A program made the translations under genes and the position numbers. DNA of 58,222 nt from a virus: IMG/VR virus record IMGVR_UViG_3300045978_000161, positions 1 through 58,222 of that record; one strand, given 5' to 3'. This document shows, piece by piece, positions 33,301-58,222 of this stretch. How positions within the stretch are numbered: the stretch's first letter is position 1; each line of letters starts with the position of its first letter. The notes below the pieces were generated by a model. That model worked only from the letters and a program-made list of their open reading frames with translations, was not told the DNA's origin and ran no database searches.

Positions 33301-34221
33301 TTACGGCCTCAGGTGCGCGTAGCCGTACAGCCCGCTCGAAAGGATGCCGGTGCCGGGCTGCGTCAGGTGCCGCTGGAACACGGGGAACACCTGCCACTGC
33401 TGACCGCCGTAGCTCACGATCTCGCCCGGATCGAAGTTGCGCATGGAGACGAAGCGCAGGTTCGGGATCCTGCCGACTGGCGACGCCAGGCCACTCGCGC
33501 GCGCGACGAAGTACTCGCACGGGAACAGCGCGGTGCGCAGGTTCCACGACTGATCTTGAGTCGGCCAGTAGCTTGCCCACAGCCCGTCGCCGCGGCCGCT
33601 GCCGAATGCCATGTCATCGTCCGACGCCAGGCTCGCCGGCTGCTTCATGATTGCCCAGTTGGGCGATGCCTTGCCGTCGTAGTCGACCCATAAGTGCCCC
33701 GTGAGCTTGGTCGAGTTGGTTGCATCGCAGATGTGCCGCACGCCACCATAGTCCGCGAAGGGGATCGAGAAGATTGCGCTGGCGTCGCCCTCGGTCGAGT
33801 CGCAATACACGCCACCATCGTAGGTGCCGGACGGCACCAGCTGTCCGATCGTCCAGTGCCGGAAGATGTTGGCGCTGATCTCGACCGAGACGTGCACGTA
33901 CTCGTATCCATCTTCGTCGCCGAGATAGAAGTGATACGCGGTGTACGGCCCGGCGCCGAGATCCAGGATGTCGGTGACGGTGGCCGCGCCAGGCTGCGCA
34001 TTCCAGGCCGCCGCGCCGCTGTAGCCGGTGCAGCCGCGGCGCTGCCACTGGGTCGTTGTCGCGTCGATGCCGGCGTAAATGATGCCGCTGCCGCCGTTGT
34101 GGATCACGGCATCGCCCGACGCCGGCGCGGAGCTTGTCCACCCGTTCGCGGTGATGAAGGTGATCAGCTTCGACAGCAGATCAGCGGGATCGGTGGCAAC
34201 ACCTGTCTCGTAAGTCACCAT
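33301..34221 (-). CDS. Tail protein
   Basis: 306 residues, beta-rich, no transmembrane segment. The N-terminus (DPADLLSKLITFITANGW) resembles that of the 34228 and 27114 proteins, pointing to repeated paralogues of one tail-tip family. Ends one base before the distal tail gene starts. Confidence 0.65.
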   Translation of the reverse strand: MVTYETGVATDPADLLSKLITFITANGWTSSAPASGDAVIHNGGSGIIYAGIDATTTQWQRRGCTGYSGAAAWNAQPGAATVTDILDLGAGPYTAYHFYLGDEDGYEYVHVSVEISANIFRHWTIGQLVPSGTYDGGVYCDSTEGDASAIFSIPFADYGGVRHICDATNSTKLTGHLWVDYDGKASPNWAIMKQPASLASDDDMAFGSGRGDGLWASYWPTQDQSWNLRTALFPCEYFVARASGLASPVGRIPNLRFVSMRNFDPGEIVSYGGQQWQVFPVFQRHLTQPGTGILSSGLYGYAHLRP

Positions 34222-34227
34222 GCTCGC

Positions 34228-35142
34228 TCACTCCAGTTTGATCGCCGCGTAGTAGTACCGCGCGGTGCGGTGGAGATTCTGCACGACCAGGTACGGAATG
34301 CCGTCGATCGTCACCGTGTTCTCGGATGCATTGTTGAAGCCCGACACCGCATACACACCGTCGATCTCGCCAAAGGTGTCGCTGACCGGATTGGTGCCCA
34401 TGAGGATTAGTGGCTTCAGCCAGTAGGTCCCGTCGACGTTCTCCCGTAGCTCGCGATAGCGCGTCTGCACCTGCCCATCCAGCGAGTCCGCGGCATAAGG
34501 CCACACGTGATTGCTGCTCGAGACGCCGGACTCACCGCCGCCCGACTGCTGGAAGTTCTGCACCGCGCGCCAGGATCCGGCGCCGGGCATCAGCATGTAG
34601 GCGCTGCTGCCTGGATCCCAGAAGTTGCGGTTGTTCTCATTGGTCGTCGACCAGCGAGTTGTCGGTGTGGCGACCGGCGCCGCGAGGTAGTAAGGCTGCG
34701 GGTATTCGCCCGGCGTGCCGTATGGCAGGTATTTGCCGGCGTGCGCCGACGGGTAGACGGTCGAGACCTTCGGAGTGATCGTGACGCGCTGGCCGTTCGC
34801 CACGAACCAGTACTGCATCGGCTGATTCCAGATCGGCAGATAGACCACCGTCGAAATGCCGGGCTGCTCGAGATCTCCCAGGCCCGCGTTGTAGCTGCGG
34901 AACATCCAGATGCCGAGCGCATAGGTGTCGGTGCCGACATCTTCGTGCAGGCTGAAGCCGACGAAGATCTCCTCCGTGGTGCTGATGCCAGGCGCCATGT
35001 ACAACGCGCGCTTGTTGAGTGAGTCGTAGCGCAGCAGCTCCCAGTCCGGGCCGCCCGGCGTGGTGACGCTGCGCTCCAGGAAATCGCGCAGCCGATCGAA
35101 CAGATCTTCGTGATCGGCTGCGGTGTCAATCTCGACGGCCAT
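34228..35142 (-). CDS. Tail protein, paralogue-like of 33301
   Basis: 304 residues from the ATG at 35142, which overlaps the tape-measure stop (TGATG). It shares length, the N-terminal helix then Trp pattern and a beta-rich body with the next gene. Proteins directly after the tape measure usually form the distal tail. Function inferred from location only. Confidence 0.65.
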   Translation of the reverse strand: MAVEIDTAADHEDLFDRLRDFLERSVTTPGGPDWELLRYDSLNKRALYMAPGISTTEEIFVGFSLHEDVGTDTYALGIWMFRSYNAGLGDLEQPGISTVVYLPIWNQPMQYWFVANGQRVTITPKVSTVYPSAHAGKYLPYGTPGEYPQPYYLAAPVATPTTRWSTTNENNRNFWDPGSSAYMLMPGAGSWRAVQNFQQSGGGESGVSSSNHVWPYAADSLDGQVQTRYRELRENVDGTYWLKPLILMGTNPVSDTFGEIDGVYAVSGFNNASENTVTIDGIPYLVVQNLHRTARYYYAAIKLE

Positions 35143-37814
35143 CAGCGCCCTCCTAACAATCGTTTCAGTGTCACCGAGTTCTTGCTGATGACGTTCATGA
35201 TCGCCCGTTCGCCGGACGCGGAGTTGATCCCGTCGGCGACCAGGTTCTCGTCGACCAGGTTGACGATGCGGATGCCCTGGGTGCCGGAAGCCTGCGCGCC
35301 GGCGGGCGTGCTGACAGGTGGACCCACCTGGCCGCCGGTGGCGAAGCGCGGCGCGCGCATCACATCGCGGAGCCGCAAGCGACCGGCGTTCCACGCGCGC
35401 ATGAAATTGAGCGCGCCCGGCTCCATGAGCCTCGCCTTGCGCAGCACGAATTCGCCCTCTTGCGCGAGGATCGGGATTTTGTCCGGCCCCGGGATCGGGA
35501 GCCTTGGGCCGGCAACATCGCCGCCGCCGACATAGCCGCGGATGCGGCCGCCGTACTGCGCCAGGCCCGCGCCGACGCCGGTCAATCCGGATCCGGCCTG
35601 CGTCGCGCCGCCGGCGCCGCCACCGAAGGCGCTGAACAAGGTGCGCACCAGGGCGAGCGTCGCCTGCTGCGCGATGATCTCGGCCACCATCCGGCGCAGC
35701 GAGTCGACCACACTGCGCGCCAGAGACTTGAAGGCGTCGCCGATGTCCTCGATCTTGTCGGCGTTCGCGAGGAAATCCTCCAGGCCCGACTGGAAGGCGT
35801 CGATGCCGGCGTTGCGGAACTGCGTGGCGAAGTCGGTCGCGGCCTTGTAGCTCAACGCGATCTGATCCACCGACGCGGCGAACTCGCGCGCCTTCTTTAT
35901 CTGCTCCTCGTTGCCCGACGCTTCGGCCGCCGCGAGCATCGCCTGCGCGAGCTGCTGGAGCAGCTCCAGCCGCTGCTGTTCCAGGTCCAGGATTGCGCGC
36001 TCGCCCTCGGCCTGGCTGCGCAAGCCGAGTTCGACGTCGTTGCGGATCTGCTCCTGGTCGCGCTGGAAGGCTTCGAGCGCATCACTGCCCTGTCGCTGCA
36101 GCTCATCGAAGTTGAACGCCTGCTCCGACAGCGCGCGCACCCTGTTGACGGTGGCCTCGATCTCCGCGGCCGTCTGCCCGGCGCGGATCCCAAGCTCGCG
36201 GATCTGCTCCAGCTCCAATTCGAGGTTGTTCTGGAAGGCCTGGTGCCGGTTGCCCTCCAGGTCCGCGAGCTTCGTCTGCAGCTCCAGCTGCTGCTGGCCG
36301 AGTTCTTTTCGTGCGGCCGCCTCGTCGGCGTCGATCTGCGCCAGCTCGCGCGCGGACGCGACCCGCTGCCGGGCGATCTGCGCATCGAGCTGCGCGAGCT
36401 GCTGGCGCAGCTTGATGCGATCGGCCTCATCCTCCGGGCCACCTTCCGTGCTGCTCGAGTTCAGCTGCGAGACGAGTGCGGCGCGCTGCGCCTTCAAGGC
36501 CTGCAGTTCGACCGCGTTCTCCCGCTCCTGCAGCTCGCGCCGGCGGGCGAAGAATTGCTGCAGGGAGATCAGGCCCTGGTCGTAGGCGTTCTGATTCTCC
36601 TGATTCAGCGTTTTCAGGTGCTCTTGCTGCAGCTTCAGCTCATCGTCGAAGGCCTGCTTGCTGGCGGCGCGCTGCGCGGCCGCGGCCTTGCGCGCGGCAT
36701 CCAGCGCAAAGTTCGGATCCACGCCGAGTGGGGTGGCGGACTTCTTGGGCGGCTCGTCGGTGGTCAGCTTGTCGAACGCGCCGCGGATGTCCTCCGCGGC
36801 CGCAAGATCAATCTCCGCTCGCTCGCGGGCGCTGCGCTCGAATGCGGCGGCCGCACCCTCAAAGTCGCCCTTCGCGATCGCCTTGCCCGCGTCAATGATC
36901 GCGCTGACGAAGCTCACGACCTTCGCGGTCACCGCGCCGATGGTCCTGCCGACGCTCACGAACAGGAACGTGACCGTCTTGATCACGATGCCGATGGCCT
37001 GGCCGAGCACCTTGAAGCCGTTGGTGGCGCCCGTGGTCGCGCCCGTTATTGTCTCCATGGAGTCGGCGACCGCCGGCGCCAGGCCCGACAGGAACTGAGT
37101 GGCGACGCCTTCGGCCTGCAGGCCGATCGTCTGCAGTGAGTCGTTGGCGCGCGCGGCCGCGTCGGCGAGATCTGCGTCGATGAGTACGCCGAGTTCCTTC
37201 GCCTTCGCGATGAAGGCGTCGATGCCCTGCTCGCCCACCGCCTTCAGTGCGGTTGTGAGCTCGCCGGCGCCGCGGCCGAAGATGCGCTGCGCGGCGGCCG
37301 CGCGGTCGGCCGCGTTCGGGATCGCGGCGAGCTTGCGCGCAATCTCCTCCAGTGCTCGAGGCGCGGAGAGATTGCCGAACTTCGCGATGTCGACGCCGAT
37401 CGCGGCAAGGTTGTCCTTTGCCTCCTGGCTGCCGGCGGCCACCTGGCCCATGATGTTGGTCGTCTTGAACAGCGCGGTCTGCAGGCCTTCCTGGGACGAC
37501 TGGTTCTGCCGGAACGCGAGCGTCAGGCCCGACACTTCTTCGACGGTGCCTCCGACGGATGCGGCGAGCTTGCCGGTCTTGTCGGCGGTGTCGAGCGCCG
37601 CCTTGCCGAGCGCGATCATGCCGGCGACCGCGGCCGCGAGACCGATCGCGGGAAGGACTGACTTCAGCTCCTGGGCAGCCTGCTTGACCAGGCCGAGCTT
37701 CTTGCCGGCGTTGTCGCCGGATTTCTTCGATTCGTTTTCGATCTTCCGCAGCGCCGCGATGACTTCGTTGATGCCTTCGGGCGAGAGACGGACGCGAATG
37801 TCTGGGGTGCTCAT
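35142..37814 (-). CDS. Tail tape measure protein
   Basis: 890 residues, typical of siphovirus tape measures. The first 350 residues hold hydrophobic helices (IGLAAAVAGMIALGKAAL, FLFVSVGRTIGAVTAKVV) and the middle 370-650 is a long Gln/Arg/Glu coiled coil. The end contains Gly-rich hydrophobic segments and the lambda-type C-terminus. It sets the tail length (about 130 nm at 0.15 nm per residue, a general rule). ATGA-coupled to the frameshifted chaperone upstream. Confidence 0.92.
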   Translation of the reverse strand: MSTPDIRVRLSPEGINEVIAALRKIENESKKSGDNAGKKLGLVKQAAQELKSVLPAIGLAAAVAGMIALGKAALDTADKTGKLAASVGGTVEEVSGLTLAFRQNQSSQEGLQTALFKTTNIMGQVAAGSQEAKDNLAAIGVDIAKFGNLSAPRALEEIARKLAAIPNAADRAAAAQRIFGRGAGELTTALKAVGEQGIDAFIAKAKELGVLIDADLADAAARANDSLQTIGLQAEGVATQFLSGLAPAVADSMETITGATTGATNGFKVLGQAIGIVIKTVTFLFVSVGRTIGAVTAKVVSFVSAIIDAGKAIAKGDFEGAAAAFERSARERAEIDLAAAEDIRGAFDKLTTDEPPKKSATPLGVDPNFALDAARKAAAAQRAASKQAFDDELKLQQEHLKTLNQENQNAYDQGLISLQQFFARRRELQERENAVELQALKAQRAALVSQLNSSSTEGGPEDEADRIKLRQQLAQLDAQIARQRVASARELAQIDADEAAARKELGQQQLELQTKLADLEGNRHQAFQNNLELELEQIRELGIRAGQTAAEIEATVNRVRALSEQAFNFDELQRQGSDALEAFQRDQEQIRNDVELGLRSQAEGERAILDLEQQRLELLQQLAQAMLAAAEASGNEEQIKKAREFAASVDQIALSYKAATDFATQFRNAGIDAFQSGLEDFLANADKIEDIGDAFKSLARSVVDSLRRMVAEIIAQQATLALVRTLFSAFGGGAGGATQAGSGLTGVGAGLAQYGGRIRGYVGGGDVAGPRLPIPGPDKIPILAQEGEFVLRKARLMEPGALNFMRAWNAGRLRLRDVMRAPRFATGGQVGPPVSTPAGAQASGTQGIRIVNLVDENLVADGINSASGERAIMNVISKNSVTLKRLLGGR

Positions 37815-38535
37815 TTGTCCTGCCTCAACAGAAGTTTCGGGATCTCAGGCACGTCGACACCTTTGCTGCCGGCGAAACAAACGCGCACCTGATACATCAG
37901 CTGCCGGTGCCGCAGATCCTCCCGTAAATGCTCGCGTGACACCTCCAGGTAACTGATCAGCACCTCACTCAGCGGCCACCGCTGCACGACCAGGGCCCGC
38001 GCGAAGTCGTGCAGCGCGACTTCGCGGACGATCGTCTCCCAGTCGCCGAGGTGCCTCAGTGCGCCGCGGGCGGGTGGCCTGGCTGGCTCTTTTTCGTCCG
38101 GGTCAGCATCGTCTCCGCTCGCTCTAAATAGCTCTGGGAACGATTCAGCGATGCGATGCCTTCCCGAAAAAAATAGATGTTCACCTGGAAGGCGAGACGG
38201 AAAACCTCCTCGCGATCGGCGCGCGCTGTCAGCCCCCTGATGAACTTGGCGGTCGCGGCCGCCAGCTGCTCATCCCAGTCGGTTTCCGTCTTGCCCACCG
38301 GCAGGAGGAATCCGCCTAACAGCTCCGGAAGTTTCAGCGTGTCGGTGACCCGCGCCTGCAGGCGCACTTGGTACTCGATGTCCGTCTCGCCTTCGTTGAA
38401 TGGAAGCGGAAGATCCAGCCCTGTGCTCCGCATCAGGGCGTGGATGTACGCTTCGTTGGCGACCGTGATCACGTCGTAGTTCACGACGTTGAACAGCCGA
38501 TCGCCGAGCTTGATGTCCCCAGTCATCGCGGTCAT
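37811..38535 (-). CDS. Tail chaperone GT, -1 frameshift product
   Basis: The chaperone ORF shifts back one base at GAAAAAG (38095-38089) after Lys149. The -1 frame is open from there for 92 codons and ends at a TGA at 37813-37811, which overlaps the ATG of the tape measure (ATGA). The fusion is about 241 residues. The extra part is a helical domain with Arg and His-Leu pairs (LEVSREHLREDLRHRQLMYQV). GT-type chaperones bind the tape measure and tail tube protein and are needed for assembly but not in virions. Confidence 0.85.
38056..38535 (-). CDS. Tail assembly chaperone G
   Basis: 159 residues, directly before the tape measure as in lambda G. Mixed alpha/beta with a helical C-terminal half (REEVFRLAFQVNIYFFREG) and a short Pro-rich tail that is replaced when ribosomes shift. 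ATG at 38535; another ATG at 38526 is possible. The unshifted product ends at 38058. Confidence 0.8.
   Translation of the reverse strand: MTAMTGDIKLGDRLFNVVNYDVITVANEAYIHALMRSTGLDLPLPFNEGETDIEYQVRLQARVTDTLKLPELLGGFLLPVGKTETDWDEQLAAATAKFIRGLTARADREEVFRLAFQVNIYFFREGIASLNRSQSYLERAETMLTRTKKSQPGHPPAAH
38089..38095 (-). other. Slippery site for -1 frameshifting
   Basis: On the minus strand ACG AAA AAG AGC. The heptamer G AAA AAG allows the A-site AAG to re-pair as AAA, and the P-site AAA as GAA (one mismatch). It is a weaker relative of A AAA AAG. A GC-rich stretch able to fold lies just downstream (AGCCAGCCAGGCC...), as expected for a stimulator. Confidence 0.75.
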
Positions 38536-38541
38536 GGCGGG

Positions 38542-39324
38542 TTACCGCACTCGATCGAGGGTGCCGAACGGATCGTTGGGGTGATTGGCGGCGTCCGACA
38601 ACACACCCATCGTCAGCTGGAAGCTGCCGAACTCGTCGCTGATCACGTTGAGTTCGCCTTCGGGCGCGACGCTGCAGCGCCAGATCTCCAGCCGATCGCG
38701 TGCCGCGTCGCCGTCCTGGTTGGCGTCGTCCGCCAGGTACAGGAGGTGACAGATCGGCGCCGCATCGCGCGCGAGCCGGATCTGGTCGATCGTCTTGGCC
38801 GGGATGTCGTAGGTGACGACGAGATCCATGCCCACCTCGACGGCGCCGCCGGCGAGGATGCCGATGAGCCCGGCGTCCGCGTACAGCTGATAGTCGGTGC
38901 CGGCGACGAGTGCGATCGAGCCGTCCGCCTGGATCGACACGTTCGTGACCTGGCGAGCCTCCAGATCCAGGTATTTGCCGGGCGCGACGAGATCACCATC
39001 GAAGTTCTTGGTGGCGCCGTTCTGCAAGGCCTGGAGCTTCTCGTTGCTCGTGCCGAGCAGAAACTTCTTCAGGTTGTTGAGCGTGTATTCGCTCAGGGTG
39101 GCCGTGAGTGTGTACGCGATGCGCGTCACCGCTTCGGCGATCAGGGGCGCGGATCGCTCCGTGCTCGAGAACAGCTGGGCCTTCGTGACATCGGCCGACA
39201 GCGTGATCGCCGTCGCGTTGCCCATGAAATCGAAGCCCTGGTGGTCACCATCGCTGGTGAGCGTGTCGAGCAAGAGGGAACCCTTGCCGAGCTTTACTTT
39301 CGTGCCATCTGCGGGAAGGGGCAT
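38542..39324 (-). CDS. Major tail protein (tail tube)
   Basis: 260 residues from the ATG at 39324, chosen because AGGAG lies eight bases upstream (the longer frame starts in non-coding leader). Beta-rich with repeated Thr/Asp strands and KLGKGSLLLDTLTSDGD at the start; the position before the G/GT chaperones fixes the identity. It should form the tube rings around the tape measure. Confidence 0.85.
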   Translation of the reverse strand: MPLPADGTKVKLGKGSLLLDTLTSDGDHQGFDFMGNATAITLSADVTKAQLFSSTERSAPLIAEAVTRIAYTLTATLSEYTLNNLKKFLLGTSNEKLQALQNGATKNFDGDLVAPGKYLDLEARQVTNVSIQADGSIALVAGTDYQLYADAGLIGILAGGAVEVGMDLVVTYDIPAKTIDQIRLARDAAPICHLLYLADDANQDGDAARDRLEIWRCSVAPEGELNVISDEFGSFQLTMGVLSDAANHPNDPFGTLDRVR

Positions 39325-39450
39325 GTTCGCGACTCCTGTGGATGTGGATGTGACGCGCCCGCCCACCGGCGGCCGCCGTGCGGGTGAAATATACCCGGCC
39401 GGCGCCGGATTGCGGTTTCGCTTCGCGCGCGATCGCCGGTGCGCACTCCT
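39325..39450 (-). promoter_or_regulatory. Gap with possible promoter for the tail tube gene
   Basis: No gene. Contains a CCGGCGCCGGCC hairpin-like block and, on the minus strand, TATATT at 39393-39388 about 60 bases before the tube gene. There is no good -35 box 17 bases upstream. It may permit extra transcription of the tube gene independent of the modification cassette. Confidence 0.3.
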
Positions 39451-40164
39451 CTATATGCGGTAGTGCTCGCGGATCCAGGGGCAGCGCTCCTGCACCTCCG
39501 GCGTCCAGGGATCCTCCTTGCCGTGGAAGTTGATCGCGCGCAGGTTCGCCGGCAGCGGCGCCCGGCCGTTCTGCAGGTGCACGCGCCAGGAGTAGACGCC
39601 ATCCTTCTCCGGCGACCATTTGGCTTCCCCGGGTCCGAGACATGCGCCGATCCAGGCCTGATCCGAGCCGATGTAACCGAGCGCCTTGGCCCGCGCCGGC
39701 GACGTCGCCGGATCGAACTCGTGCCACACCTTTGAGCGGCAGCCGGCGCGCATCATGGTCATCGCGCCGTTGTAGGGCGTGTTGCGGGCGGTGTCGCCGC
39801 AGATCACGAAATCCTCCGGGCGGTGCCACAGCGGTGCCAGCGCGTCGACGAAAAGCCAGTCGAGATCCAGACTGACAAACCAGGGACCCAAGATGTCGGC
39901 CGCGCTCTCGTCGTAGATCTTCAGGCGCCGATAGCAGTTGACGCCGTTCGGCCCTTTCAGCTCGTGATGGTCGTCCCAGACCGGCACGATCCGGATGTCG
40001 CCGTCGATGCCGGCAGGATCGTCGGTGATGCACACGAATTCGTGCGGGAACGGGTAGTGCCGGTCCACCTGCGCACGAAGGTGATTGACGTGCGAGGCCT
40101 GGGGATCGCGCCGATCGCCCGGCGGTGGCCGCCACTTCCAAGTCGCAATGACGAGCTTTTCCAT
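39451..40164 (-). CDS. GT-A glycosyltransferase
   Basis: 237 residues. VCITDDP and SLDLDWLF (DLD at 100-102) supply the nucleotide-sugar and metal sites of a GT-A fold, similar to GT8-type enzymes. It lacks a signal peptide. It closes a cassette of five genes of modification enzymes inserted between head-tail connector and tail tube genes, so the acceptor is probably a virion protein or a host surface sugar. No acceptor can be named. Confidence 0.75.
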   Translation of the reverse strand: MEKLVIATWKWRPPPGDRRDPQASHVNHLRAQVDRHYPFPHEFVCITDDPAGIDGDIRIVPVWDDHHELKGPNGVNCYRRLKIYDESAADILGPWFVSLDLDWLFVDALAPLWHRPEDFVICGDTARNTPYNGAMTMMRAGCRSKVWHEFDPATSPARAKALGYIGSDQAWIGACLGPGEAKWSPEKDGVYSWRVHLQNGRAPLPANLRAINFHGKEDPWTPEVQERCPWIREHYRI

Positions 40165-40165
40165 G

Positions 40166-41584
40166 TCACTCGCCCGCGTGGCCTTTCACGATGTCGAACA
40201 GCTGCGAGTAGCGGTGCACGAAGCCGTCGCGCTTGTCGCGTAGATAGATCCACTTCGGCAAGATCTCAGGCTCATGCGCGCGGAGCAGTTCGCGGAACAG
40301 CGTGCACGCGCGATCGCGCGCGCCGCGGTCATACAGATAGAGCACCGCGCCGCACCGGAACCGCGGCCGCAAACCCTCCGGCAGCCGACTGGCCCAGGTG
40401 TCCCAGTTGGCTTCGATCTGCTGCGGACTCCACTCACTTCCCAGGAAGTGCTGCTCCGTCACCTCCTCTGCCGTGAAGCGCCGGGTCACGGTGAAGATGC
40501 CGGTGGTGCCCGGGTAGATCCCGCGCACGAAATCGACGATGCCGGCCTGCATGAGCACCGTCATGCAGATCACCTGGTCGTAGCTCGCGAAGTACGCGAA
40601 GTCCTGCCAGGCCATCACGTCGCCTGCCTCGAGGTGCGTGCCGAAGATCTGCAGCGCGCGCGCGATCTCGCGGAATCGCTTCGGTGCATCGGCGATCAGG
40701 CAGGAGATCCGCCCACCTTTCCAGTTGGCCGCGATGATCTCGCCCTTGTGGATCTCGACCAGGCTGCGCAGCGGTCCCAGGTTGACGGCGGCCTGTTCCT
40801 CCATCGGCCGTTCGAGCTTGCCGCCGGCCTTGTATTCGTGGATCGCCTGCCAGCGGAACCGATCGTAGGTGTGCATCGGTCGGGCCACGCCGGCGTCGCG
40901 CACACCGGCGGCGATGTAGACGGTGGCGCCCGCCAACCAGGTGCCCAGCTCCACGATCGCGCCGCGGTTCGCGCAGTCGCGTGCGAGCTCGTAATACGCG
41001 AACTTCTCCGCCGGCGTGGTCATGGACGGGATCTCGATCGCGCCGTCGTGGAGCGTCGGCTTGATCTCCACCTGCTCGATGTGGGAGAGATCCGGGCAGT
41101 CGGCGTGAATGGTGCGCACGCGCGCGAGGATCCAGGGCAGCTCCAGCAGCTTCGCGATCGCGACGCGGTGGTTGCCGTTGTTCGAGAGGATCACTTCGCC
41201 GTCACGTGCGATGAACACCTCCGGCAGCGGCGGGATCCGGCCGTCGATGCGCTCGCGGAATCCGTGATCGCGCATGTCGGCGTACAGCGGATCCACTTCG
41301 CCGTAGTACTGCTCGAGCAGCTCGTCGATCGTGGTGCACCCGCGCACCTCCTCGCCCCGACCGATGCGCACGCTGTAGATCTCCTTGAAAAGATCCGTTT
41401 CCTCCCATCGCCGGCCCTCGCGGAAGCGCTGCGCCATGGCGCGGTGCTTCGCCGCATCGTCCAGCGACATGCGCCTTGCGGTGTCCCAGTCGCCCGGGTG
41501 CCAGCCCTTCGGCAAGTCGCTAATGAAATCGAGCTTGAAGCGGATCCGCGCGGGATCCACGCGGATGATGTCGCTGTGCTGCAC
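40166..41584 (-). CDS. ParB/Srx and methyltransferase fusion
   Basis: 472 residues from a GTG with GGGGAG upstream. Residues 110-160 carry SNNGNHRVAIAKLL, the loop of ParB/Srx-type domains. Residues 195-340 hold an AdoMet fold with IVELGTWLAGATVY (210-223) of the Methyltransf_24 type. The C-terminal 130 residues are helical with aromatic pairs. Fusions of these two modules are unusual; the first may grip a nucleotide or phosphate and the second methylate a sugar. Confidence 0.7.
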   Translation of the reverse strand: MQHSDIIRVDPARIRFKLDFISDLPKGWHPGDWDTARRMSLDDAAKHRAMAQRFREGRRWEETDLFKEIYSVRIGRGEEVRGCTTIDELLEQYYGEVDPLYADMRDHGFRERIDGRIPPLPEVFIARDGEVILSNNGNHRVAIAKLLELPWILARVRTIHADCPDLSHIEQVEIKPTLHDGAIEIPSMTTPAEKFAYYELARDCANRGAIVELGTWLAGATVYIAAGVRDAGVARPMHTYDRFRWQAIHEYKAGGKLERPMEEQAAVNLGPLRSLVEIHKGEIIAANWKGGRISCLIADAPKRFREIARALQIFGTHLEAGDVMAWQDFAYFASYDQVICMTVLMQAGIVDFVRGIYPGTTGIFTVTRRFTAEEVTEQHFLGSEWSPQQIEANWDTWASRLPEGLRPRFRCGAVLYLYDRGARDRACTLFRELLRAHEPEILPKWIYLRDKRDGFVHRYSQLFDIVKGHAGE

Positions 41585-41586
41585 GG

Positions 41587-42273
41587 TCAGTCTCCCCAGA
41601 ATAAAAACGCATGGTGCCCGCTGCTCCAGCGGCAGGACTTCTCAAACCAGTTCCACACCTCGCGCGGCCGCGCCTCGTTGCTGGTGAGCGTGATGTAGAT
41701 GCGGCCGCCTGGCGCGAGCTGCGAGCGGCAGCAATCGAGAAAATAGTTCCAGGCCGTCACGTCCCAGAGTGGTGCGAGATCGAACTCGACCATGGTGGCG
41801 GTGATGCGATCGAAGGTGCCGAGCTGCGGCAGCGGCGTCATCGGCATCAGGCGATGCGGATGCTTCTCCACCCCGAAGAATTTGCACAGCCGCGTGTACA
41901 GGTGCGGCTCCGGCAGCGGCATATCCAGGCCAATCGTGTGATGGCCGCAGTAGCGCGCCGCGAGTCCCAGGTGACCCGGCCCGCAACCGATGTCCAGGAT
42001 CCGAAGCTCGCGCCAGCTGTCGGCCTGCAGGCCAGCGGCGAAGCGATCGAGCTGGCCGAACTTGTGGTGGATCCAGTACACCAGGTTCAAGTACTTGCGC
42101 ACCTGATACGGCTCGCTGCGGAAGCGGTGCTGAATCCGCGAGTACTCGATGTGATCGAGCTGCGTGCGCAGCCACCGCAGTAGATCGGCCTGCGCGATCG
42201 ACGCCGTGCGCAGCGCGTCCGACAGCGCCATGTCGAGACGCTGCTCCGCGCCGTCGATCACCTCCTGCTTCAC
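41587..42273 (-). CDS. AdoMet-dependent methyltransferase
   Basis: 228 residues from a GTG at 42273 (GTGA overlap). LDIGCGPGHLGLAA at about residues 93-106 is motif I of class I methyltransferases; FDRITATMVEFDLAPLW and PGGRIYITL follow in the right order. Its N-terminal helix bundle is substrate-facing. It is the third enzyme of the cassette. Substrate unknown, probably a sugar or small molecule. Confidence 0.8.
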   Translation of the reverse strand: MKQEVIDGAEQRLDMALSDALRTASIAQADLLRWLRTQLDHIEYSRIQHRFRSEPYQVRKYLNLVYWIHHKFGQLDRFAAGLQADSWRELRILDIGCGPGHLGLAARYCGHHTIGLDMPLPEPHLYTRLCKFFGVEKHPHRLMPMTPLPQLGTFDRITATMVEFDLAPLWDVTAWNYFLDCCRSQLAPGGRIYITLTSNEARPREVWNWFEKSCRWSSGHHAFLFWGD

Positions 42274-42875
42274 GGGCGCACCCCGACCACGATCGGATCG
42301 CCGTGGTCGAGTGTCGTCTCGATGCGATAGGCCGCGCCCTCCAGGAGCGCGGTCATGCCCTCGATCGCAGCCAGGAAATTGAAGCGGCCGAGTTCGCTGC
42401 GTGGCTCTTGCCGGTGCTGCTGCTGGCGGCCGCGGTTTCCACAGAGCACGATCCGCTTGACGCCGGCGGCCGCGGCCGCGGCCATGACGCGCGGTGCGTG
42501 CTCGCGCATGTAGTAGATGGCCCGCACCGCGATGAGCACGTCGACGCCGGCGAGCAATCCGAAGTTCTCCAGGATGTCGCCGCAGACGAGCTGCGCCCGG
42601 CGGGTGTCGAAGCCGAGCGTGTTCCAGCGCTGCTGCAGCCGCAGGCTCGCGTGGTGTCGATCGGGTCGCAGCTCCAGGCCGATCGCGTTGGTAACCAGGC
42701 GCTCGCGCGCGAGGAGCAGCGTGAGCACACCTTCGGCGGCGCCGATCTCCAGTGCGCACTCGCCCTTGATGTACGGAACCAGGCGCGTGTACTTCGCCGG
42801 CACCACCCCGTCACGGATGTCGGCGCCATGGCGCTTGTACGCGAGCGATGGGCGCTCGTTTTCTTCTACTGGCAT
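42270..42875 (-). CDS. AdoMet-dependent methyltransferase
   Basis: 201 residues. CALEIGAAEGVLTLLLA (40-56) is motif I with Ala replacing the usual Gly at one place; LVCGDILENF and DVLIAVRAIYYM follow. The start at 42875 overlaps the previous stop (TGATG). A class I methyltransferase for a small acceptor; partner of the others in the cassette. Confidence 0.75.
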   Translation of the reverse strand: MPVEENERPSLAYKRHGADIRDGVVPAKYTRLVPYIKGECALEIGAAEGVLTLLLARERLVTNAIGLELRPDRHHASLRLQQRWNTLGFDTRRAQLVCGDILENFGLLAGVDVLIAVRAIYYMREHAPRVMAAAAAAGVKRIVLCGNRGRQQQHRQEPRSELGRFNFLAAIEGMTALLEGAAYRIETTLDHGDPIVVGVRP

Positions 42876-43672
42876 CACGGACTCCCCAGAAAAACGGCCT
42901 TGTGGTCTCTCACCAGCGGATCCGCCTCCTTGGCGGTCAGCTCCAGCACCTCGCCGGCGTTGAACGGCCGGTGCGCGATTACACAGTCCGAAAGAGTGCG
43001 CACTGTCCGCGACCGCAAATCCCGCAACAACAATTCCCGATCGACTACAGGCTCCGGCGTTTCACGTGGATCATAGTGCGCACACTTCTCGCGGAACAGA
43101 GGGCTGCATCCGAGCGCGCGGTACTGCGCCGGAAAGACTGCTAACAAAGTGCACCACCGTTGAAGATGTTGCACTGGAGTGGCGGCGCGTCCGGACGATC
43201 GCGCTTTCGGCGCGTCGTGATACGTCGCGCCTTCCCACAGATCCATGCCCATGAGGATGATCGGCGCGCAGCCCATGAGCCGCGCGCACCAGGCCGCGGC
43301 CATGCTCGAGCTGGGGCCCGGCATGTACGTCAATCGCCAGTCGCCCCATGGGTGCCGCGAGATCACCGGCACATCCCACGGCGCACCGTCGCGCGCCGGC
43401 GGTGGCAGATCCCTCATGCCGATGTCCCGGCGGACGCGCTCCTCGATCCGGTCTGCACATACGACGTAGCTACAACGTCGTGACAGCGCCGGCCGGTCCT
43501 TCAGCAGCCGTAAGCCGTGATCGTTTACCGATAGATAGAGCGCGTCCGCCGGCGCCTGCTCGATGTGCGTCGCGAGAGAGGGCCCGCCACCCATGATCAC
43601 GGCCGCGCGGCCAGGGTGCGCGAGCACCAGGTCGCGCACCGTGCGATACGGCGGCCAGGCAGTGCGGCGCAT
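42875..43672 (-). CDS. DUF115/MptE-like glycosyltransferase-related protein
   Basis: 265 residues. AAVIMGGGPSL at 23-33, followed by SVNDHGLRLL and VVCADR, matches DUF115 (MAF flagellin glycosylation and 6-hydroxymethylpterin pyrophosphokinase MptE-like) proteins, where GxGPSL binds a nucleotide. TAATG overlap with the connector gene. First gene of the cassette; it may prepare or transfer a sugar. The family also appears in phage surface modification islands. Confidence 0.75.
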   Translation of the reverse strand: MRRTAWPPYRTVRDLVLAHPGRAAVIMGGGPSLATHIEQAPADALYLSVNDHGLRLLKDRPALSRRCSYVVCADRIEERVRRDIGMRDLPPPARDGAPWDVPVISRHPWGDWRLTYMPGPSSSMAAAWCARLMGCAPIILMGMDLWEGATYHDAPKARSSGRAATPVQHLQRWCTLLAVFPAQYRALGCSPLFREKCAHYDPRETPEPVVDRELLLRDLRSRTVRTLSDCVIAHRPFNAGEVLELTAKEADPLVRDHKAVFLGSP

Positions 43673-44118
43673 TACGCGCGCTTGGTCAGATCGTTTTTGC
43701 GGGTGTAGTAGCGGATGCGCCAGCGCGTGAGGGCGACGATCACGAACACGCCACCGTCGTTTGCTGTGGCCCAGAGCGTGTTCAGCTCGCGAACTCCGAG
43801 CGCCTTGCCAGAGAGCTTGGTGTCGCCGAGTGTTGCGACGATGTGCTCCAGCAGCGGCTCGATCGCGTCGTCTGCTTCTTCGGGCAACTCCACCGGCACG
43901 ATCGCCTGGATGAGCAGCACCATGTTCCGCTCTGTCAGTGGGCCGGAGTCGCCGCCCACCTGGTCGGCATCTTCGTCCTGGAAGAATGCGGCGAGCCGCG
44001 CGGCGCGGATCTTTTCACCGGGGATGAATCGCCGGCGCGTGCACTCCGGGACATCGGTCGGCCGATCGGTGTTGAGCTCCTGGATGGCCTGGTCGCGGAT
44101 CTCGGTGCGGACGCTCAT
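43672..44118 (-). CDS. Head-tail or tail completion protein
   Basis: 148 residues from the ATG at 44118 (ATGA overlap). Helix then strands, with the position of tail completion proteins (lambda U) between connector and tail tube. No diagnostic motif. Confidence 0.6.
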   Translation of the reverse strand: MSVRTEIRDQAIQELNTDRPTDVPECTRRRFIPGEKIRAARLAAFFQDEDADQVGGDSGPLTERNMVLLIQAIVPVELPEEADDAIEPLLEHIVATLGDTKLSGKALGVRELNTLWATANDGGVFVIVALTRWRIRYYTRKNDLTKRA

Positions 44119-44435
44119 AACGCTTCTCCCAGTTCGATGATGGTTAGGCCCGACTCGTCGCCGCCTGGGAGCAGCTCGCGGAGGAATCGGAAGGATCCGT
44201 AGTTGTCGATGCTCACCAGCTCGTTGAGATCCAGCGTGCCGATCGCGTCGACGTACTGGCACTCGAATGAGATCCCGACCGTCTGCACGGCGCCGCCGGG
44301 CATCTGGATCTCGCGAGGCTGGTGGAAGAAGGCGCCCTGCACCTCGATGCTGCCGTCGATCAGTGCCACGGCCTTGACGATGCGGGATCCGAAGATCCTG
44401 CGGTCAAACATCGCCATGACGTCACGAACGGTCAT
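44115..44435 (-). CDS. Head-tail connector protein
   Basis: 106 residues from the ATG at 44435 with AAGGGGAC upstream. Beta-rich (AVALIDGSIEVQGAFF, GISFECQYVDAIG), compatible with lambda FII-like joining proteins. Lies directly behind the capsid gene and a hairpin that may lower its transcription. Confidence 0.6.
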   Translation of the reverse strand: MTVRDVMAMFDRRIFGSRIVKAVALIDGSIEVQGAFFHQPREIQMPGGAVQTVGISFECQYVDAIGTLDLNELVSIDNYGSFRFLRELLPGGDESGLTIIELGEAL

Positions 44436-44454
44436 CGCTGTCCCCTTGTGAAAC

Positions 44455-44486
44455 GGCCCTGGTGGCGCTCCCACACCACCAGGGCC
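44455..44486 (-). terminator. Hairpin after the capsid gene
   Basis: GGCCCTGGTGG (44455-44465) pairs perfectly with CCACCAGGGCC (44476-44486), 11 bases with a 10-base loop. It lies between the capsid stop (44507) and the connector start (44435). It probably acts as an attenuator or protects the capsid mRNA end; the T run is weak. Confidence 0.6.
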
Positions 44487-44506
44487 GGTTGGTCACCGCC
44501 TCGCGA

Positions 44507-45535
44507 TCAGACGTTGAGCTTGCCGCGCAAGAGCATCTGCGGCCGCGTCGCGACGTACAGCGGATAGCTGTACAGCTCCACCTCGACGAAGGCGTTGCGC
44601 TTCTCGTCGGGGATGGTCATCGCGTAGAAGTCCTGCCCCGGGGTGTTCACCACGTCGAACCACTCGCCGGGCGACTGGACCCGCAGGAACGCTTCCGGCG
44701 CGTTGACCGGGAAGAACTTCACGCGATCCGACTGCACGGCCACCGTGCTGTTGTCGTCGGTGCCGCGGTAGTTCATCCAGCGGATGCCGCCGAAGTCGAC
44801 CGTGCTCCACGGCGTCACGAGCTGCGCGGCGAGCGCATCGGCGCGCGCCTGCTGCGCGAGCCAGATCTCCCGCACTTCCGGGTTCTTGATCAGCGCGTCG
44901 TAGAACGTGTCGCCGGCGAGCGCTGCCACGAAGGTGGAAGGACCCCAGGCACCCTTCGATGCGCGCTGCATCTGCCGGATGATCTGGTTGCACTTCTCAC
45001 GGAACAGACCGCCAGTGAGGGCCGCGAACGCGAAGCCGATCTCCGCCGGCTGGCTGATGCCCCACTCGTCGAACCAGTTGTAGAGCACGGTGCCGTCGGC
45101 GTCGGTGACGATGCCCTGGACGGCGCCGAGTCGCATGTGCTCGTGCGTCAGCTCCAGGTCGTTGCGCAGCCTGACCGCGCGCTCCAGCACTTCGGTCTGC
45201 ACCTGCTCGAACTCGCTTTCGGTGCCGAAGGCGCGGATGCCCGCGATCTCCGACGCATTCAGCGTGTCGCCTTTCGCCAGGCGTGCGGTGCGGAAGTCCC
45301 GCAGATCCCGGGTGCCCTTCACCTGCTGCGGCAGCGGGGCGCCGCGCGGCGTGGTCTGCACCAGCGAGAGCACGTTCTCCTTGCGCTCGATGCTCACCTT
45401 CTCCGTGCGCACCGAGCGCGGCGTGAAGATGCCGAGAGTGCCGAGAAGATTCGGCTGGTACTCGACCACTTGCAGCGCTGCGGTCAACTCCTGCAGCGTG
45501 AAGGCGTTGTCGGAAAAGATGTCCATGCCAGCCAT
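44507..45535 (-). CDS. Major capsid protein, lambda GpE family
   Basis: 342 residues, the size of lambda GpE (341). Helix-rich N-terminus (FTLQELTAALQVV), TEKVSIERK strands and the C-terminal strand LYSYPLYVATRPQMLL are typical of the Phage_cap_E fold. Gene order protease-decoration-capsid also fits. A GGGAGA ribosome site precedes it. It forms the icosahedral shell. Confidence 0.93.
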   Translation of the reverse strand: MAGMDIFSDNAFTLQELTAALQVVEYQPNLLGTLGIFTPRSVRTEKVSIERKENVLSLVQTTPRGAPLPQQVKGTRDLRDFRTARLAKGDTLNASEIAGIRAFGTESEFEQVQTEVLERAVRLRNDLELTHEHMRLGAVQGIVTDADGTVLYNWFDEWGISQPAEIGFAFAALTGGLFREKCNQIIRQMQRASKGAWGPSTFVAALAGDTFYDALIKNPEVREIWLAQQARADALAAQLVTPWSTVDFGGIRWMNYRGTDDNSTVAVQSDRVKFFPVNAPEAFLRVQSPGEWFDVVNTPGQDFYAMTIPDEKRNAFVEVELYSYPLYVATRPQMLLRGKLNV

Positions 45536-45577
45536 TGTCTTTCTCCCGATGGGTTTAGGGCTGTGAGTGAGCGAAAG

Positions 45578-45946
45578 TTACGGGTACACGTTGCCGCGGA
45601 CGATGATGCCCAGGGCCTTCAGATCCGCCACCGCCGCGTCGCGATCGCCGCTGTCCTCGCTGTCGGCGAACACCAGCTCGCCGCCGTTGACTTCGCAATC
45701 ACGCACGAGTGCCGTCGCCCGCACCGCACCGTCGCTCGCGTCCACGTTGTCGAGGAGGATCGCCGCGGCCGCATTGAAGCTCGCGTCGTTGTTGTACTCC
45801 TCGTACACGCCGGCGAGCACCGCGAGCACTGCGCCCGCCTGCAACACCTGGCCCGCGGCGATCGTGATGATCTCGCGGGAGCGATGGCCGTTGGCCTCCG
45901 AAACGATGAAGCCACCGCTGTGGGGGCCTTCGGTTTTGACCGTCAT
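45578..45946 (-). CDS. Head decoration protein, lambda GpD family
   Basis: 122 residues, matching GpD (110) with a short N-terminal tail. EIITIAAGQVLQAGAVLAVL and VRDCEVNGGELVFAD follow the family pattern. It binds capsid trimers after expansion and stabilises the filled head. Located between the scaffold and the capsid gene, like lambda D. Confidence 0.9.
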   Translation of the reverse strand: MTVKTEGPHSGGFIVSEANGHRSREIITIAAGQVLQAGAVLAVLAGVYEEYNNDASFNAAAAILLDNVDASDGAVRATALVRDCEVNGGELVFADSEDSGDRDAAVADLKALGIIVRGNVYP

Positions 45947-46009
45947 GTGTGCGATCTCCTCGTGACTGGTTGAAGTGCAGGTTCTCGAATCGGCCTTCGC
46001 GCGAGCGCG

Positions 46010-46534
46010 TCAGGCTTTCTTCTTGAACTTGTCGGTGATGCTACCCCACTTGCCCTTCGACTCCGTGGTGGGCTGTCCGGTGCCGCCGTGCGCGACCGGC
46101 GCCGGCGCACCGTTGCGCAAGCTGGTCACGGTGACGCCGCGTTCCTTGGCGAGCTTGACCACGTTGGCCGCGCAGTCGGCGAAAGAGGTGCCCTTGTCGA
46201 TCGCTTCGGCGATCTCCTTGTCGAAGCCCTTGGCCGTGGCGGCCAGGCCATTGAGCTGCGCCACGCGCTCGCGTTCGGCCTTGCTGGCTTCCTCGCGCGT
46301 CTTGCCGCTGGACTCTTTCACCGCGGCGTCGATGCGCGCCTGGATCTTCGGCTCCTGCTCCTTGTCGTGCGCGGCGATCGCCTCGGCCTTGATCTTGTCC
46401 ACGTCGACTGTCTCGAGCGTGATCTCGTCGGCGGTGTGGCCGGCTTCGATCGCGGCGCGCAGCTCCGCGGTGGTGCGCACGGTGATCGGGCCGCGGTTGC
46501 CTTCGGTCGTCTTGCGGGTGGCCTGGGTGCTCAT
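46010..46534 (-). CDS. Nested scaffold protein (Nu3-like)
   Basis: 174 residues from an internal ATG at 46534 with GAGGAG eight bases upstream, in frame with the protease. The product is the charged helical C-terminal part (TRKTTEGNRG... to KKA). The arrangement is the same as lambda Nu3 inside C. Confidence 0.75.
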   Translation of the reverse strand: MSTQATRKTTEGNRGPITVRTTAELRAAIEAGHTADEITLETVDVDKIKAEAIAAHDKEQEPKIQARIDAAVKESSGKTREEASKAERERVAQLNGLAATAKGFDKEIAEAIDKGTSFADCAANVVKLAKERGVTVTSLRNGAPAPVAHGGTGQPTTESKGKWGSITDKFKKKA

Positions 46535-47365
46535 CGTGAAACTCCTCGATGGTGTGTTGCGGGCGGTCAACTCGTCGATCACGGACTCAAGTGACCCGAT
46601 CCGATCGGCCAGGCCAGCGTCGACCGCTGACTGTCCGACCATCAGACCACCGCGGCCGAAGTTCTGGAGGACATCCTCCTCATCCGTTCCGCGATTGCGG
46701 GCGACCGCGCTGACGAAAACTGCGGCGAGATCATCTACGATTTTTTGCAACTTTGCTTTGCCCGCATCCTCGGACGGATCCATCCGCTTATCGGGCGACT
46801 GGCTGCTGACGATCTCGATTGTGCGCACTCCCGCCTTCTCGTCGCGGCCGCGGGAGTCCTGGATGGTCATCACGGCGCCGATCGAGCCGAGCACGGCGGT
46901 GCGGTCGGCGACGATCTCCAGGCCGCTGGAGCCGATCCAGTACGCGGCGGAAGCCATCTGGCCGGCCGCGTAGCTGATGATGGGTTTGTCCTTCTTGGCC
47001 GCGAACACGATGTCTGCGAGCTCGTTGATGCCCGCCACCTGTCCGCCGGGGGAGTCGATCTCCAGCACGATCGCGCGCACCAGTGGATCGTCGATCGCGG
47101 TGCGGATGTCGGTCGCGAGCACCTGGGTGCTGGTGGCGCCGGAGATCTCGGAGAACAGGTTGGCGTAACGCATGATCGGGCCGCGCACCGGCACGATCGC
47201 AACGCCGTTGCGAATCTGCGCGCGGCGCGCGCCGGCGAGCCGGTTGCCCTCGCGCGAGAGCAGCGCGTCGACGTCCGTGGTGCGCTCCGCGATCGCGATG
47301 ATCGTGCGCATCATGCCTTCGGTGATCAGCCACGGCTCCGACATCACAACGTCAATGGCGCGCAT
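46010..47365 (-). CDS. Head maturation protease (S49) fused to scaffold
   Basis: 451 residues from the ATG at 47365 (TGATG overlap with the portal). A ClpP-like S49 domain fills 40-260: VLEIDSPGGQVAG and AGQMASAAYW with Ser139 as likely nucleophile. Residues 278-451 are charged helices that form the scaffold, as in lambda C/Nu3. The protease cleaves scaffold and portal during assembly. Confidence 0.9.
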   Translation of the reverse strand: MRAIDVVMSEPWLITEGMMRTIIAIAERTTDVDALLSREGNRLAGARRAQIRNGVAIVPVRGPIMRYANLFSEISGATSTQVLATDIRTAIDDPLVRAIVLEIDSPGGQVAGINELADIVFAAKKDKPIISYAAGQMASAAYWIGSSGLEIVADRTAVLGSIGAVMTIQDSRGRDEKAGVRTIEIVSSQSPDKRMDPSEDAGKAKLQKIVDDLAAVFVSAVARNRGTDEEDVLQNFGRGGLMVGQSAVDAGLADRIGSLESVIDELTARNTPSRSFTMSTQATRKTTEGNRGPITVRTTAELRAAIEAGHTADEITLETVDVDKIKAEAIAAHDKEQEPKIQARIDAAVKESSGKTREEASKAERERVAQLNGLAATAKGFDKEIAEAIDKGTSFADCAANVVKLAKERGVTVTSLRNGAPAPVAHGGTGQPTTESKGKWGSITDKFKKKA

Positions 47366-49095
47366 CACTGTCCCCCTTCCGGCGCTGCCTCCGGCTCCGG
47401 CACCTGCTGGCGCCGCGCCGGCGGCGCGTTCGGGTTCTCCGGATCCTGGCCCGGGGGATTCTGCCCCGGCCGCGCCGGATTGTCCGCGGAGCCCGGCGCC
47501 TGGCCTTGCGCCGGACGCAGCTCCATGTCGTTTGCCTTTCGCCATTTCTGCTCCCTCAGCCGCTGGCGGGCGACGGTCGACCAGTTCTCGCCCATGATCT
47601 GCGCGGTCTCGATCGTCTCGTTGCTGAAGCCGGCGTCGATGCGATCGCGCGCGGCCTGCACCTCATCCTTCTCCTGCATCGCACCGCGCGCGGGACCGAT
47701 CCAGATCGCCTTCTGATACGCGGCGCGACGCTTCGGATCCGCGTAGTCGGTGACCGTCACCTTGCCGCGGGCCACTGCCTCGTCGAACCACAGCGCGTAA
47801 TGCGGCTGGCAGAACTGCTGCACGAGCCACCACCGGCGCATGGAATAGAAGCGCCAGGCCTGCAGCATCGCGGCGCGCGCGGCGCTGTAGCTTGCCTGGT
47901 AGTTGAGGAGCAGCTCGTCGAGCGGTATCTCCAGTGCGGCGCCGATCTGCCGGCACACGGCCATGAAGAACGGGTCGTAGTTGCTGTTGGGCCGCGCGGG
48001 GTTTGCGAACTGCGCCTCCTCACCAGGTCCCAGATCCATGACGACGCCATTGCCGAGCGCCAGGCCCGACGCCTCACCCTTCGCCGTCATGCCAGGCACC
48101 GCGGGAATCGGGTTGCCCTTGTCGTCGAACTGGTTGCTCTCCCGCTTGATGAACACGGTGAACATCGCGGAGATGACCGCGGCGATCAGCTCCGCGCGCG
48201 AGTACTGCTCGAGCGTCTGCAGCGGCTCCAGGATCGGTGCGAGGTACGGCATCCCGCGCGTGGTGCCGATGCGATCCTTTTCATTCCACACCTGCAGGAT
48301 GCGGCGCCGCCCCTCCTCGTCGAAGATCTCGCGCCGGTCCCACACCATCGCGTCGACGCTCGCGAACTTGTCATCCGGGTGCCGCCGGCGGATGTGGATC
48401 GCGATCGGCCGCCCGTTGTCGGAGATCTCCACGCCGTCGAGAAGGTTGCGCGTGTCGGCCTGGCCGTTCTGATTGGTGACGCGCGCGGGGTCGATCAGCT
48501 GCACCTTGAGTTCGTACTGCGAGCCTTCGGCCGGCACCATCGGTGTCAGCGCGAAGCAGTCACCACCCAGGAGTGCGGTGATCAGCGCGAGCGACTGGAG
48601 CCCCGCGCCGTCGAGTGTCGCCTCGATGTCGACCTCCACCGGGTTGTCGTAGTAGCAAGCCCACTCCGACAGGATCTCGTTGTTCAGCTCCTCCGCCTGC
48701 TCCTCGCTGATGCCGAGCGCATCGGCGTCGACGTCGGGGTGCATGGTGAGGCCGGTGCCCACCACGTTCGTGCGCACGCGCGTCGCGGCCGCGCGCGCGA
48801 CCAGGTGGTTGCGGTACGCATCGAAGGATCGCGCCGCGGTGGTCTCGCGTTCCTTGCGCGAGTTGTCGCTGCGGCCGGATCCGAGCACCGGGCGCCAGCC
48901 GGTCATTGACCGCAGGAAATTGCTCGCGCCGCGCCACCGGGTTTCCGATCGCTGGCGCTCCACCGAGCTGCCGCTGTTCGCTTCCAGCTCCTTCAGGTGG
49001 TTGTACTGAATGCGGTGCAGGACGTTCTGCACGGCGCGCGCGGGGTTGATGGCGAACGCGATCCGCTCGCGCAGGCTCATGTCTGGAGCTTTCAT
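47365..49095 (-). CDS. Portal protein, lambda family
   Basis: 576 residues, as long as lambda B. RTNVVGTGLTMHPD, SEWACYYDNPVEVDI and LLLNYQASYSAARAAML are hallmarks of the Phage_portal_2 family. The Pro/Gln-rich C-terminal tail (about 40 residues) is probably the part trimmed by the protease. It forms the dodecameric gate for DNA. Confidence 0.95.
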   Translation of the reverse strand: MKAPDMSLRERIAFAINPARAVQNVLHRIQYNHLKELEANSGSSVERQRSETRWRGASNFLRSMTGWRPVLGSGRSDNSRKERETTAARSFDAYRNHLVARAAATRVRTNVVGTGLTMHPDVDADALGISEEQAEELNNEILSEWACYYDNPVEVDIEATLDGAGLQSLALITALLGGDCFALTPMVPAEGSQYELKVQLIDPARVTNQNGQADTRNLLDGVEISDNGRPIAIHIRRRHPDDKFASVDAMVWDRREIFDEEGRRRILQVWNEKDRIGTTRGMPYLAPILEPLQTLEQYSRAELIAAVISAMFTVFIKRESNQFDDKGNPIPAVPGMTAKGEASGLALGNGVVMDLGPGEEAQFANPARPNSNYDPFFMAVCRQIGAALEIPLDELLLNYQASYSAARAAMLQAWRFYSMRRWWLVQQFCQPHYALWFDEAVARGKVTVTDYADPKRRAAYQKAIWIGPARGAMQEKDEVQAARDRIDAGFSNETIETAQIMGENWSTVARQRLREQKWRKANDMELRPAQGQAPGSADNPARPGQNPPGQDPENPNAPPARRQQVPEPEAAPEGGQ

Positions 49096-49316
49096 CAGGA
49101 CACCGGCGTCACGTAGATGAGACGGTTGCGGCCCTTCTGGCTATCGGGCAGCCCCTCCTGCGCAGCCTTGGCCGCGTAGCTCTCCTCCAGTTTCATGAGT
49201 GTCTCCAGGCTCGCCATCGTGATGGCGCGGCCGTTGTACTGCACCTGCTGGCCGCCGGCGACCAGCTCGTCGATCGCGGTGCGCACTGCTTCGAGTCGCT
49301 GCGTGTAGGTTGCCAT
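49095..49316 (-). CDS. Head-tail joining protein, GpW type
   Basis: 73 residues, nearly the length of lambda GpW (68). Position between terminase and portal and the helix-hairpin-strand pattern (LEAVRTAIDELVAGGQQVQYNGRAITMA) agree. It plugs and completes the packaged head. Confidence 0.85.
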   Translation of the reverse strand: MATYTQRLEAVRTAIDELVAGGQQVQYNGRAITMASLETLMKLEESYAAKAAQEGLPDSQKGRNRLIYVTPVS

Positions 49317-56005: not shown

Positions 56006-56250
56006 GTCGGCCACCCCGCGAGCTGGTTGCCCGATGGCGGGCTTGGCGTCCAGAGCTTCGCGTACTCCGTGCAGCAGCTCTCGCAGAACAACCGACCAGG
56101 TGCGCGTGGGTGCTTGCCGCACCGGCACAGCCCGCCCGCCGGCGCCGCGGCCGCCGGTGCTGTCTCGAGCTGCTCGCCCATTGCGAAACTTTTCTGGTCC
56201 GGTTTCCCGTTATGCGAAACCTTCACTCGCGATTTCGTGTTACGCCGCAT
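56002..56250 (-). CDS. Small zinc-knuckle protein
   Basis: 82 residues from the ATG at 56250, inside the end of the preceding gene. CRCG and CESCC form a single zinc site. Basic N-terminal helix (MRRNTKSRVKVSHNG). It may assist the GT-A enzyme or bind nucleic acid. Confidence 0.6.
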   Translation of the reverse strand: MRRNTKSRVKVSHNGKPDQKSFAMGEQLETAPAAAAPAGGLCRCGKHPRAPGRLFCESCCTEYAKLWTPSPPSGNQLAGWPT

Positions 56251-58210: not shown

Positions 58211-58222
58211 ATCCGAATTACC
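58211..58222. repeat. Terminal direct repeat, right copy
   Basis: Exact copy of bases 1-12 (ATCCGAATTACC). See the left copy for the two readings. Confidence 0.7.

Follow-up and report, generated by a model that had tools for sequence, protein, structure and literature searches.

The glycosylation of phage virions is already known as a general idea, and in the literature that we searched, its execution by phage enzymes has been shown only in a few mycobacteriophages. According to two reports, the virions of Che8, Corndog, and Myrna are glycosylated by phage-encoded glycosyltransferases (PMC12363180), which in Che8 and Corndog decorate the capsid and the tail tube (Freeman et al. 2023, as cited in PMC12363180 and PMC11600133). 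In cluster O phages, three glycosyltransferases adjoining an O-methyltransferase modify the capsid and tail tube (PMC11600133). Gp108 of Che8, in our analysis, fuses a Methyltransf_24/TylF domain to a GT2 glycosyltransferase. In Tetraselmis viridis virus S20 (TvV-S20), about nine genes rich in glycosyltransferases and methyltransferases (TVGG_41-49) lie between the capsid and head-closure genes; we found no characterization of this sugar cassette. Finally, fusions of a ParB-CTPase fold with a SAM-dependent methyltransferase have been described that carry the Box II motif GxxR, include phage-enriched fusions to Methyltransf_23, and have a bacterial representative that binds ATP (PMC12704722).

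The window that we analyzed, an IMG/VR virus record of 58,222 bases, carries a cassette of five genes for a DUF115/MptE-like protein, two class I methyltransferases (MT1 and MT2), a fusion of a ParB-like domain with a class I methyltransferase domain (ParB-MT), and a GT-A-type glycosyltransferase (GT). As in Che8 and Corndog, a phage glycosyltransferase is accompanied by a putative O-methyltransferase, and Methyltransf_24 is found both in Che8 gp108 and in relatives of ParB-MT. The Che8 genes, however, occupy the extreme right of their genome, outside the structural operon, and that system has no MT1, ParB-like, or DUF115 part. Since neither BLAST nor profile comparison with Che8 gp108-110 gave a significant match (lowest hhalign E value, 0.011 over 42 columns), the likeness is one of function and not of membership; by analogy, the window cassette would work as virion glycosylation does in Che8 and Corndog while belonging to a different gene family. 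TvV-S20 shares the GT family with the window (46% identity to the last gene of its cassette) along with DUF115-like and methyltransferase genes, but it lacks MT1 and ParB-MT, has GT-D, GT2, and FkbM genes, and carries its cassette ahead of the head-closure genes instead of the tail tube gene. The published ParB-CTPase fusions resemble ParB-MT in that a ParB-like GxxR motif adjoins a class I methyltransferase. Yet, they have been read as DNA methyltransferases, whereas ParB-MT has a predicted fold like that of Methyltransf_24 sugar O-methyltransferases, sits in a glycosyltransferase operon, and is split into two genes in most of its relatives.

Five genes between the tail terminator and the tail tube

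The structural module of the window lies entirely on the minus strand and includes a lambda-type head module with portal, S49 protease, decoration protein, and a major capsid protein of the lambda E type (44507 to 45535; phrog_29, 3.5e-44), after which the tail genes follow. A comparison of its structural region (34000 to 49100) with 50,697 phage records found no close relative at the DNA level. The five genes are at the coordinates given in the original prediction (43672 to 39451), on the minus strand, between the tail terminator (43672 to 44118, minus strand; phrog_4204, 2.9e-7) as upstream border and the major tail (tube) protein with its Ig-like domain (38542 to 39324, minus strand; phrog_807, 3.8e-37) as downstream border. 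In order of transcription, they encode the DUF115/MptE-like protein of the GT42/sialyltransferase-like superfamily (42875 to 43672; 265 aa), MT1 (42270 to 42875; 201 aa, SAM motif LEIGAAEG), MT2 (41587 to 42273; 228 aa, motif ILDIGCGPG), ParB-MT (40166 to 41584; 472 aa), and GT (39451 to 40164; 237 aa, DLD at residues 100-102). They are coupled, as had been proposed, but not by overlaps throughout: overlaps of 1 nucleotide join the terminator to the DUF115-like gene and the latter to MT1, and one of 4 nucleotides joins MT1 to MT2, whereas gaps of 2 nucleotides (MT2/ParB-MT) and 1 nucleotide (ParB-MT/GT) separate the rest. Approximately 126 nucleotides lie between GT and the tail tube gene, which starts with an ATG at 39324.

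No sigma-70-like promoter was found between 38000 and 46000, so the cassette is probably cotranscribed with the structural operon. Such late coexpression would also fit modification of the host surface. Codon usage in MT1, MT2, ParB-MT, and GT is similar to that of the structural genes, while that of the DUF115-like gene is clearly atypical (0.10 versus 0.23 to 0.53 log-odds). The reading frames of all five genes are intact. Because relatives in the same order occur in other phages at 35 to 61% identity, the five-gene set is, judged from sequence comparison, not due to chance, and we regard it as a real, functional-looking, and recurrent cassette.

Comparison with related tail modules shows that the five genes are an insertion, as the site is empty in these modules and is occupied by a different sugar cassette in one close relative. 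Among 28 contigs with related tail tube genes, only one, that of locus L011, matches any cassette family beside the tube gene. In contigs that extend upstream of the tube gene, the gene directly before it is usually of terminator size (about 150 aa); genes were called with a simple home-made program, and a few short contigs end before this point. A search with the tail terminator also matched only the contig of L011, which shares with the window the terminator (42% identical), the tube protein (32%), the chaperone, and the tape measure. At the same junction, L011 has a DUF115-like gene (43% identical), an unknown gene, an NAD-dependent epimerase, and two GT relatives; the different sugar genes mark the site as a hot spot with changing contents. 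None of 27 other contigs with related tail tube genes has the window's cassette at this position, and its core is found at other sites.

An MT1, ParB-MT, and GT core in other phages

ParB-MT is encoded in 30 viral loci and MT1 in 26, the latter with relatives at 42 to 56% identity. When near-duplicates were removed, 20 nonredundant contigs with ParB-MT remained, including the window, and in every one of them MT1 lies directly upstream of ParB-MT. GT follows downstream in 17 of the 20; the remaining three comprise one contig end, one contig with GT further off, and one with none visible. The gene order across these contigs is MT1, MT2 where present, ParB-MT, and GT, with MT2 being an optional member that has a homolog (49% identical) at the equivalent position in L009 only. 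Structural genes lie on both sides of the cassette in 16 of the 20 contigs, whereas in L027/L094 it adjoins replication genes instead. The cassette is found between capsid and portal in HK97-like phages, between adaptor and neck in others, and between terminator and tail tube in the window, that is, at no fewer than three different sites and head types.

The pairwise distances of MT1, ParB-MT, and GT covary (Mantel r of 0.85, 0.73, and 0.68, P 0.0005; 17 contigs, with three GT sequences partial), so that the three genes are for the most part inherited together. A single gene encodes ParB-MT in 7 of the 20 contigs and two adjacent genes (of about 155 and 300 aa) in the other 13; that it is fused in some phages and split in others indicates joint action of its two halves. 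No ParB-MT was found in cultured phages by tblastn or in GTDB genomes by a pattern scan, which can miss divergent copies. In the literature that we searched, we found no description of the core, of its fusion and fission, or of the head-tail hot spot. The recurrence of this core in approximately 20 otherwise different metagenome phages suggests that their particles are coated with methylated sugars.

The wider GT family is encoded by 214 viral stretches, mostly beside head-tail connector genes. For an analysis of its context, 80 of the 214 were kept, with 65 distinct proteins and 38 loci with enough flanking sequence; structural genes stood on both sides in 29 of these 38, and a DUF115-like gene was nearby in 26. 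Companions in these sister cassettes include GT2, GT-D, FkbM, Methyltransf_23, Methyltransf_24, DUF115, and NAD-epimerase genes. The arrangement had been called unusual, a description that does not hold in general: dozens of viral contigs have cassettes of glycosyltransferase, DUF115, and methyltransferase genes where head and tail genes meet. Among isolates, GT found matches only in Tetraselmis viridis virus S20, the best of them, in virus SI1, and in the partial EBPR siphovirus 3 (34% identity). Bacteria, chiefly Alphaproteobacteria, likewise encode GT relatives, several of them among arrayed head-tail genes and hence in prophages, and this gives a hint of which hosts the phage group infects. 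Sequenced strains with a GT relative in a head-tail operon include Sphingopyxis flava R11H (L165), Sphingopyxis sp. PET50 (L166), Bosea sp. WAO (L172), and Alcaligenaceae CAII-56 (L171).

Predicted domains and folds

GT matches the phrog_1962 glycosyltransferase profile (3e-7), the DLD (DxD) motif is invariant in its family, and there are weak profile matches in the PDB to Skp1 galactosyltransferase and glycogenin. The DUF115-like protein is weakly tied to MptE, its match to Pfam MptE-like (PF01973; 6.1e-7) reaching 29.8 bits and so falling under the cutoff of 34.6. The family profile of this protein (A6) matched the GT42 sialyltransferases CstI/II in the PDB with an E value of about 0.01 and MptE with 0.057, and its model, of low confidence (pLDDT 67.6), gave a fold search that was no more than compatible with GT42/thiamine-pyrophosphokinase-like folds. 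It is probably a glycosyltransferase or glycan-handling enzyme. For the methyltransferases, MT2 exceeds the Pfam cutoff for Methyltransf_23 (4.1e-8), while MT1 and ParB-MT have weak Pfam matches of their own and become convincing only through their relatives: L008, a relative of MT1, hits Methyltransf_23 at 8e-6, and ParB-MT scores 15.4 bits against Methyltransf_24 (cutoff of 26.3), with relatives L104, L095, and L092 above that cutoff. Neither MT1 nor MT2, both generic class I enzymes, has a match that indicates a substrate.

The AlphaFold2 model of ParB-MT is of high confidence (pLDDT 92.6), and for its C-terminal methyltransferase domain the best PDB matches were MeT1, SpnH, MycF, and NovP. 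These are the closest solved folds, at 14 to 18% identity, and their substrates are antibiotic sugars or, in the case of MeT1, a mycobacterial polysaccharide. The modeled methyltransferase half is thus closest to sugar O-methyltransferases. In the N-terminal half, the motif GNHR is invariant among 19 aligned members and fits Box II GxxR. There was no Pfam ParB_N match to ParB-MT, alignment of the domain with the window's own ParB by hhalign gave an E value of 0.12 with GxxR in register, and a sequence search of the PDB returned chance matches to designed propellers only. As GNHR fits the motif and no profile match is significant, the ParB label of the original prediction stays a lead at the level of a motif.

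A possible role in virion glycosylation

We consider it fairly probable that the five genes form a late-expressed virion-glycosylation cassette that makes an O-methylated glycan. GT, probably together with the DUF115/GT42-like protein, would draw one or more sugars from the nucleotide-sugar pools of the host and attach them to an abundant virion protein while it is being made, with the capsid, decoration, and tail tube proteins as candidate acceptors. MT1, MT2, and the methyltransferase half of ParB-MT would then O-methylate the glycan, and the ParB-like half may be the nucleotide-binding partner of that methyltransferase. The benefit could be shielding, or an altered particle surface or adsorption. 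Virion decoration with a methylated sugar, one half of what had been predicted, is the best-supported reading because the cassettes lie in head-tail operons across phages, because the predicted fold is that of a sugar O-methyltransferase, and because the same methyltransferase family occurs in phages known to glycosylate their virions.

It seems rather improbable to us that MT1, the ParB-like protein, the Methyltransf_24 domain, and GT constitute a phage-specific module whose ParB-like domain serves as an NTP-dependent kinase or switch and, together with the methyltransferase, caps or terminates the virion glycan. For such a capping module, kinase-methyltransferase chain terminators, such as WbdD, provide a comparison, and if this reading were true, a ParB-fold enzyme would be acting on sugars.

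Alternatively, the cassette could modify the host surface, changing LPS or a different glycan of the envelope at a late stage of infection, with consequences for superinfection exclusion or release. GT8-family genes of SAR11 myophages have been proposed for a host-surface role (PMC7029224), and GT has weak matches to GT8-fold enzymes. Nevertheless, the cassette proteins are predicted to be soluble (maximum 19-residue hydropathy of 0.8 to 1.7), no flippase, polymerase, or membrane protein is among the annotated companions, and the cassettes of different phages are embedded among head-tail connector genes, which makes this scenario unlikely. The other half of the original prediction, a sugar made for DNA, fares worse. 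A methylated sugar could be built on phage DNA bases given that the window has a separate gene of the TET-associated glycosyltransferase (TAGT) family, above the Pfam cutoff but away from the cassette (55232-56014), and that ParB-methyltransferase fusions in phages are generally interpreted as DNA methylases (PMC12704722). However, TAGT is found in only 1 of 18 records and is absent from 17 that have the cassette or GT relatives, some of them fragments, so it is not linked to the cassette. Moreover, the window cassette contains no nucleotide-sugar enzyme; Tet_JBP (PF12851) is missing from all 18 records and thymidylate synthase (PF00303) from all 12 that were searched, the window having neither; C5 DNA methylase (PF00145) is absent from the window; and the fold of ParB-MT fits sugar rather than DNA methyltransferases. 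We judge DNA hypermodification to be quite improbable.

The uninformative matches of MT1 and MT2 would accommodate protein methylation or small-molecule tailoring, in which the methyltransferases act on side chains of virion proteins and GT acts separately. This is very unlikely in light of the coinheritance with GT and the sugar O-methyltransferase-like fold of ParB-MT. Least credible of all is a neutral mobile insertion (moron) without a role in the virion: variable site and content and the foreign codon usage of the DUF115 gene would be expected of it, but intact frames, catalytic motifs that are invariant across 35 to 60% identity, and an order kept in 20 contigs would not.

If the virion-glycosylation reading is true, then glycosylated virions would be broadly distributed among tailed phages, many of them apparently infecting Proteobacteria. 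The genes responsible would occupy a site of repeated insertion within the head-tail operon, and their conserved three-gene core would include a pair, ParB-like domain and methyltransferase, that had not been linked to glycans before. Virion glycosylation is directly testable in sequenced lysogens that carry GT relatives.

In the HK97-like relatives, a collagen-like protein adjoins the cassette, with Gly-X-Y runs in 50 of 63 cluster members. We rejected this protein as a universal acceptor because Gly-X-Y runs of at least six are missing from the window; within the HK97-like relatives, it is a tempting substrate.

Codon usage of the DUF115-like gene

Within the operon that carries the sugar cassette, the codon usage of the DUF115-like gene (42875-43672, minus strand) clearly differs from that of the other genes, which suggests that it was recently acquired.

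Sugar genes and a collagen-like protein in relatives

Five of the related loci (L165, L166, L168, L171, and L172) are putative prophages in genomes of Sphingopyxis, Afipia, Alcaligenaceae, and Bosea, and their head-tail regions carry either one glycosyltransferase or a small sugar cassette. A collagen-like (Gly-X-Y) protein was found in 50 of the 63 members of cluster c2, including L007, L014, L018, L026, L040, L060, and L092, among others. Its gene lies directly 3' of the portal gene in the head module, adjoining the sugar cassettes.

Features outside the cassette

A TAGT-family glycosyltransferase (55232-56014, minus strand) scored above the Pfam cut-off; no TET gene accompanies it, and a ParB-like gene (57345-57986) is located three genes upstream. 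In Microbacterium phages, too, a TAGT relative has a ParB-like gene as its neighbour, along with one for UDP-glucose dehydrogenase.

Both record ends (1-12 and 58211-58222) carry an exact 12-nt direct repeat, ATCCGAATTACC. It may represent either a cohesive end of the lambda-like kind or an assembly overlap from a circular genome. Finally, a DUF5131 protein is encoded at 10391-11248 on the plus strand (strong match, 1.4e-76).
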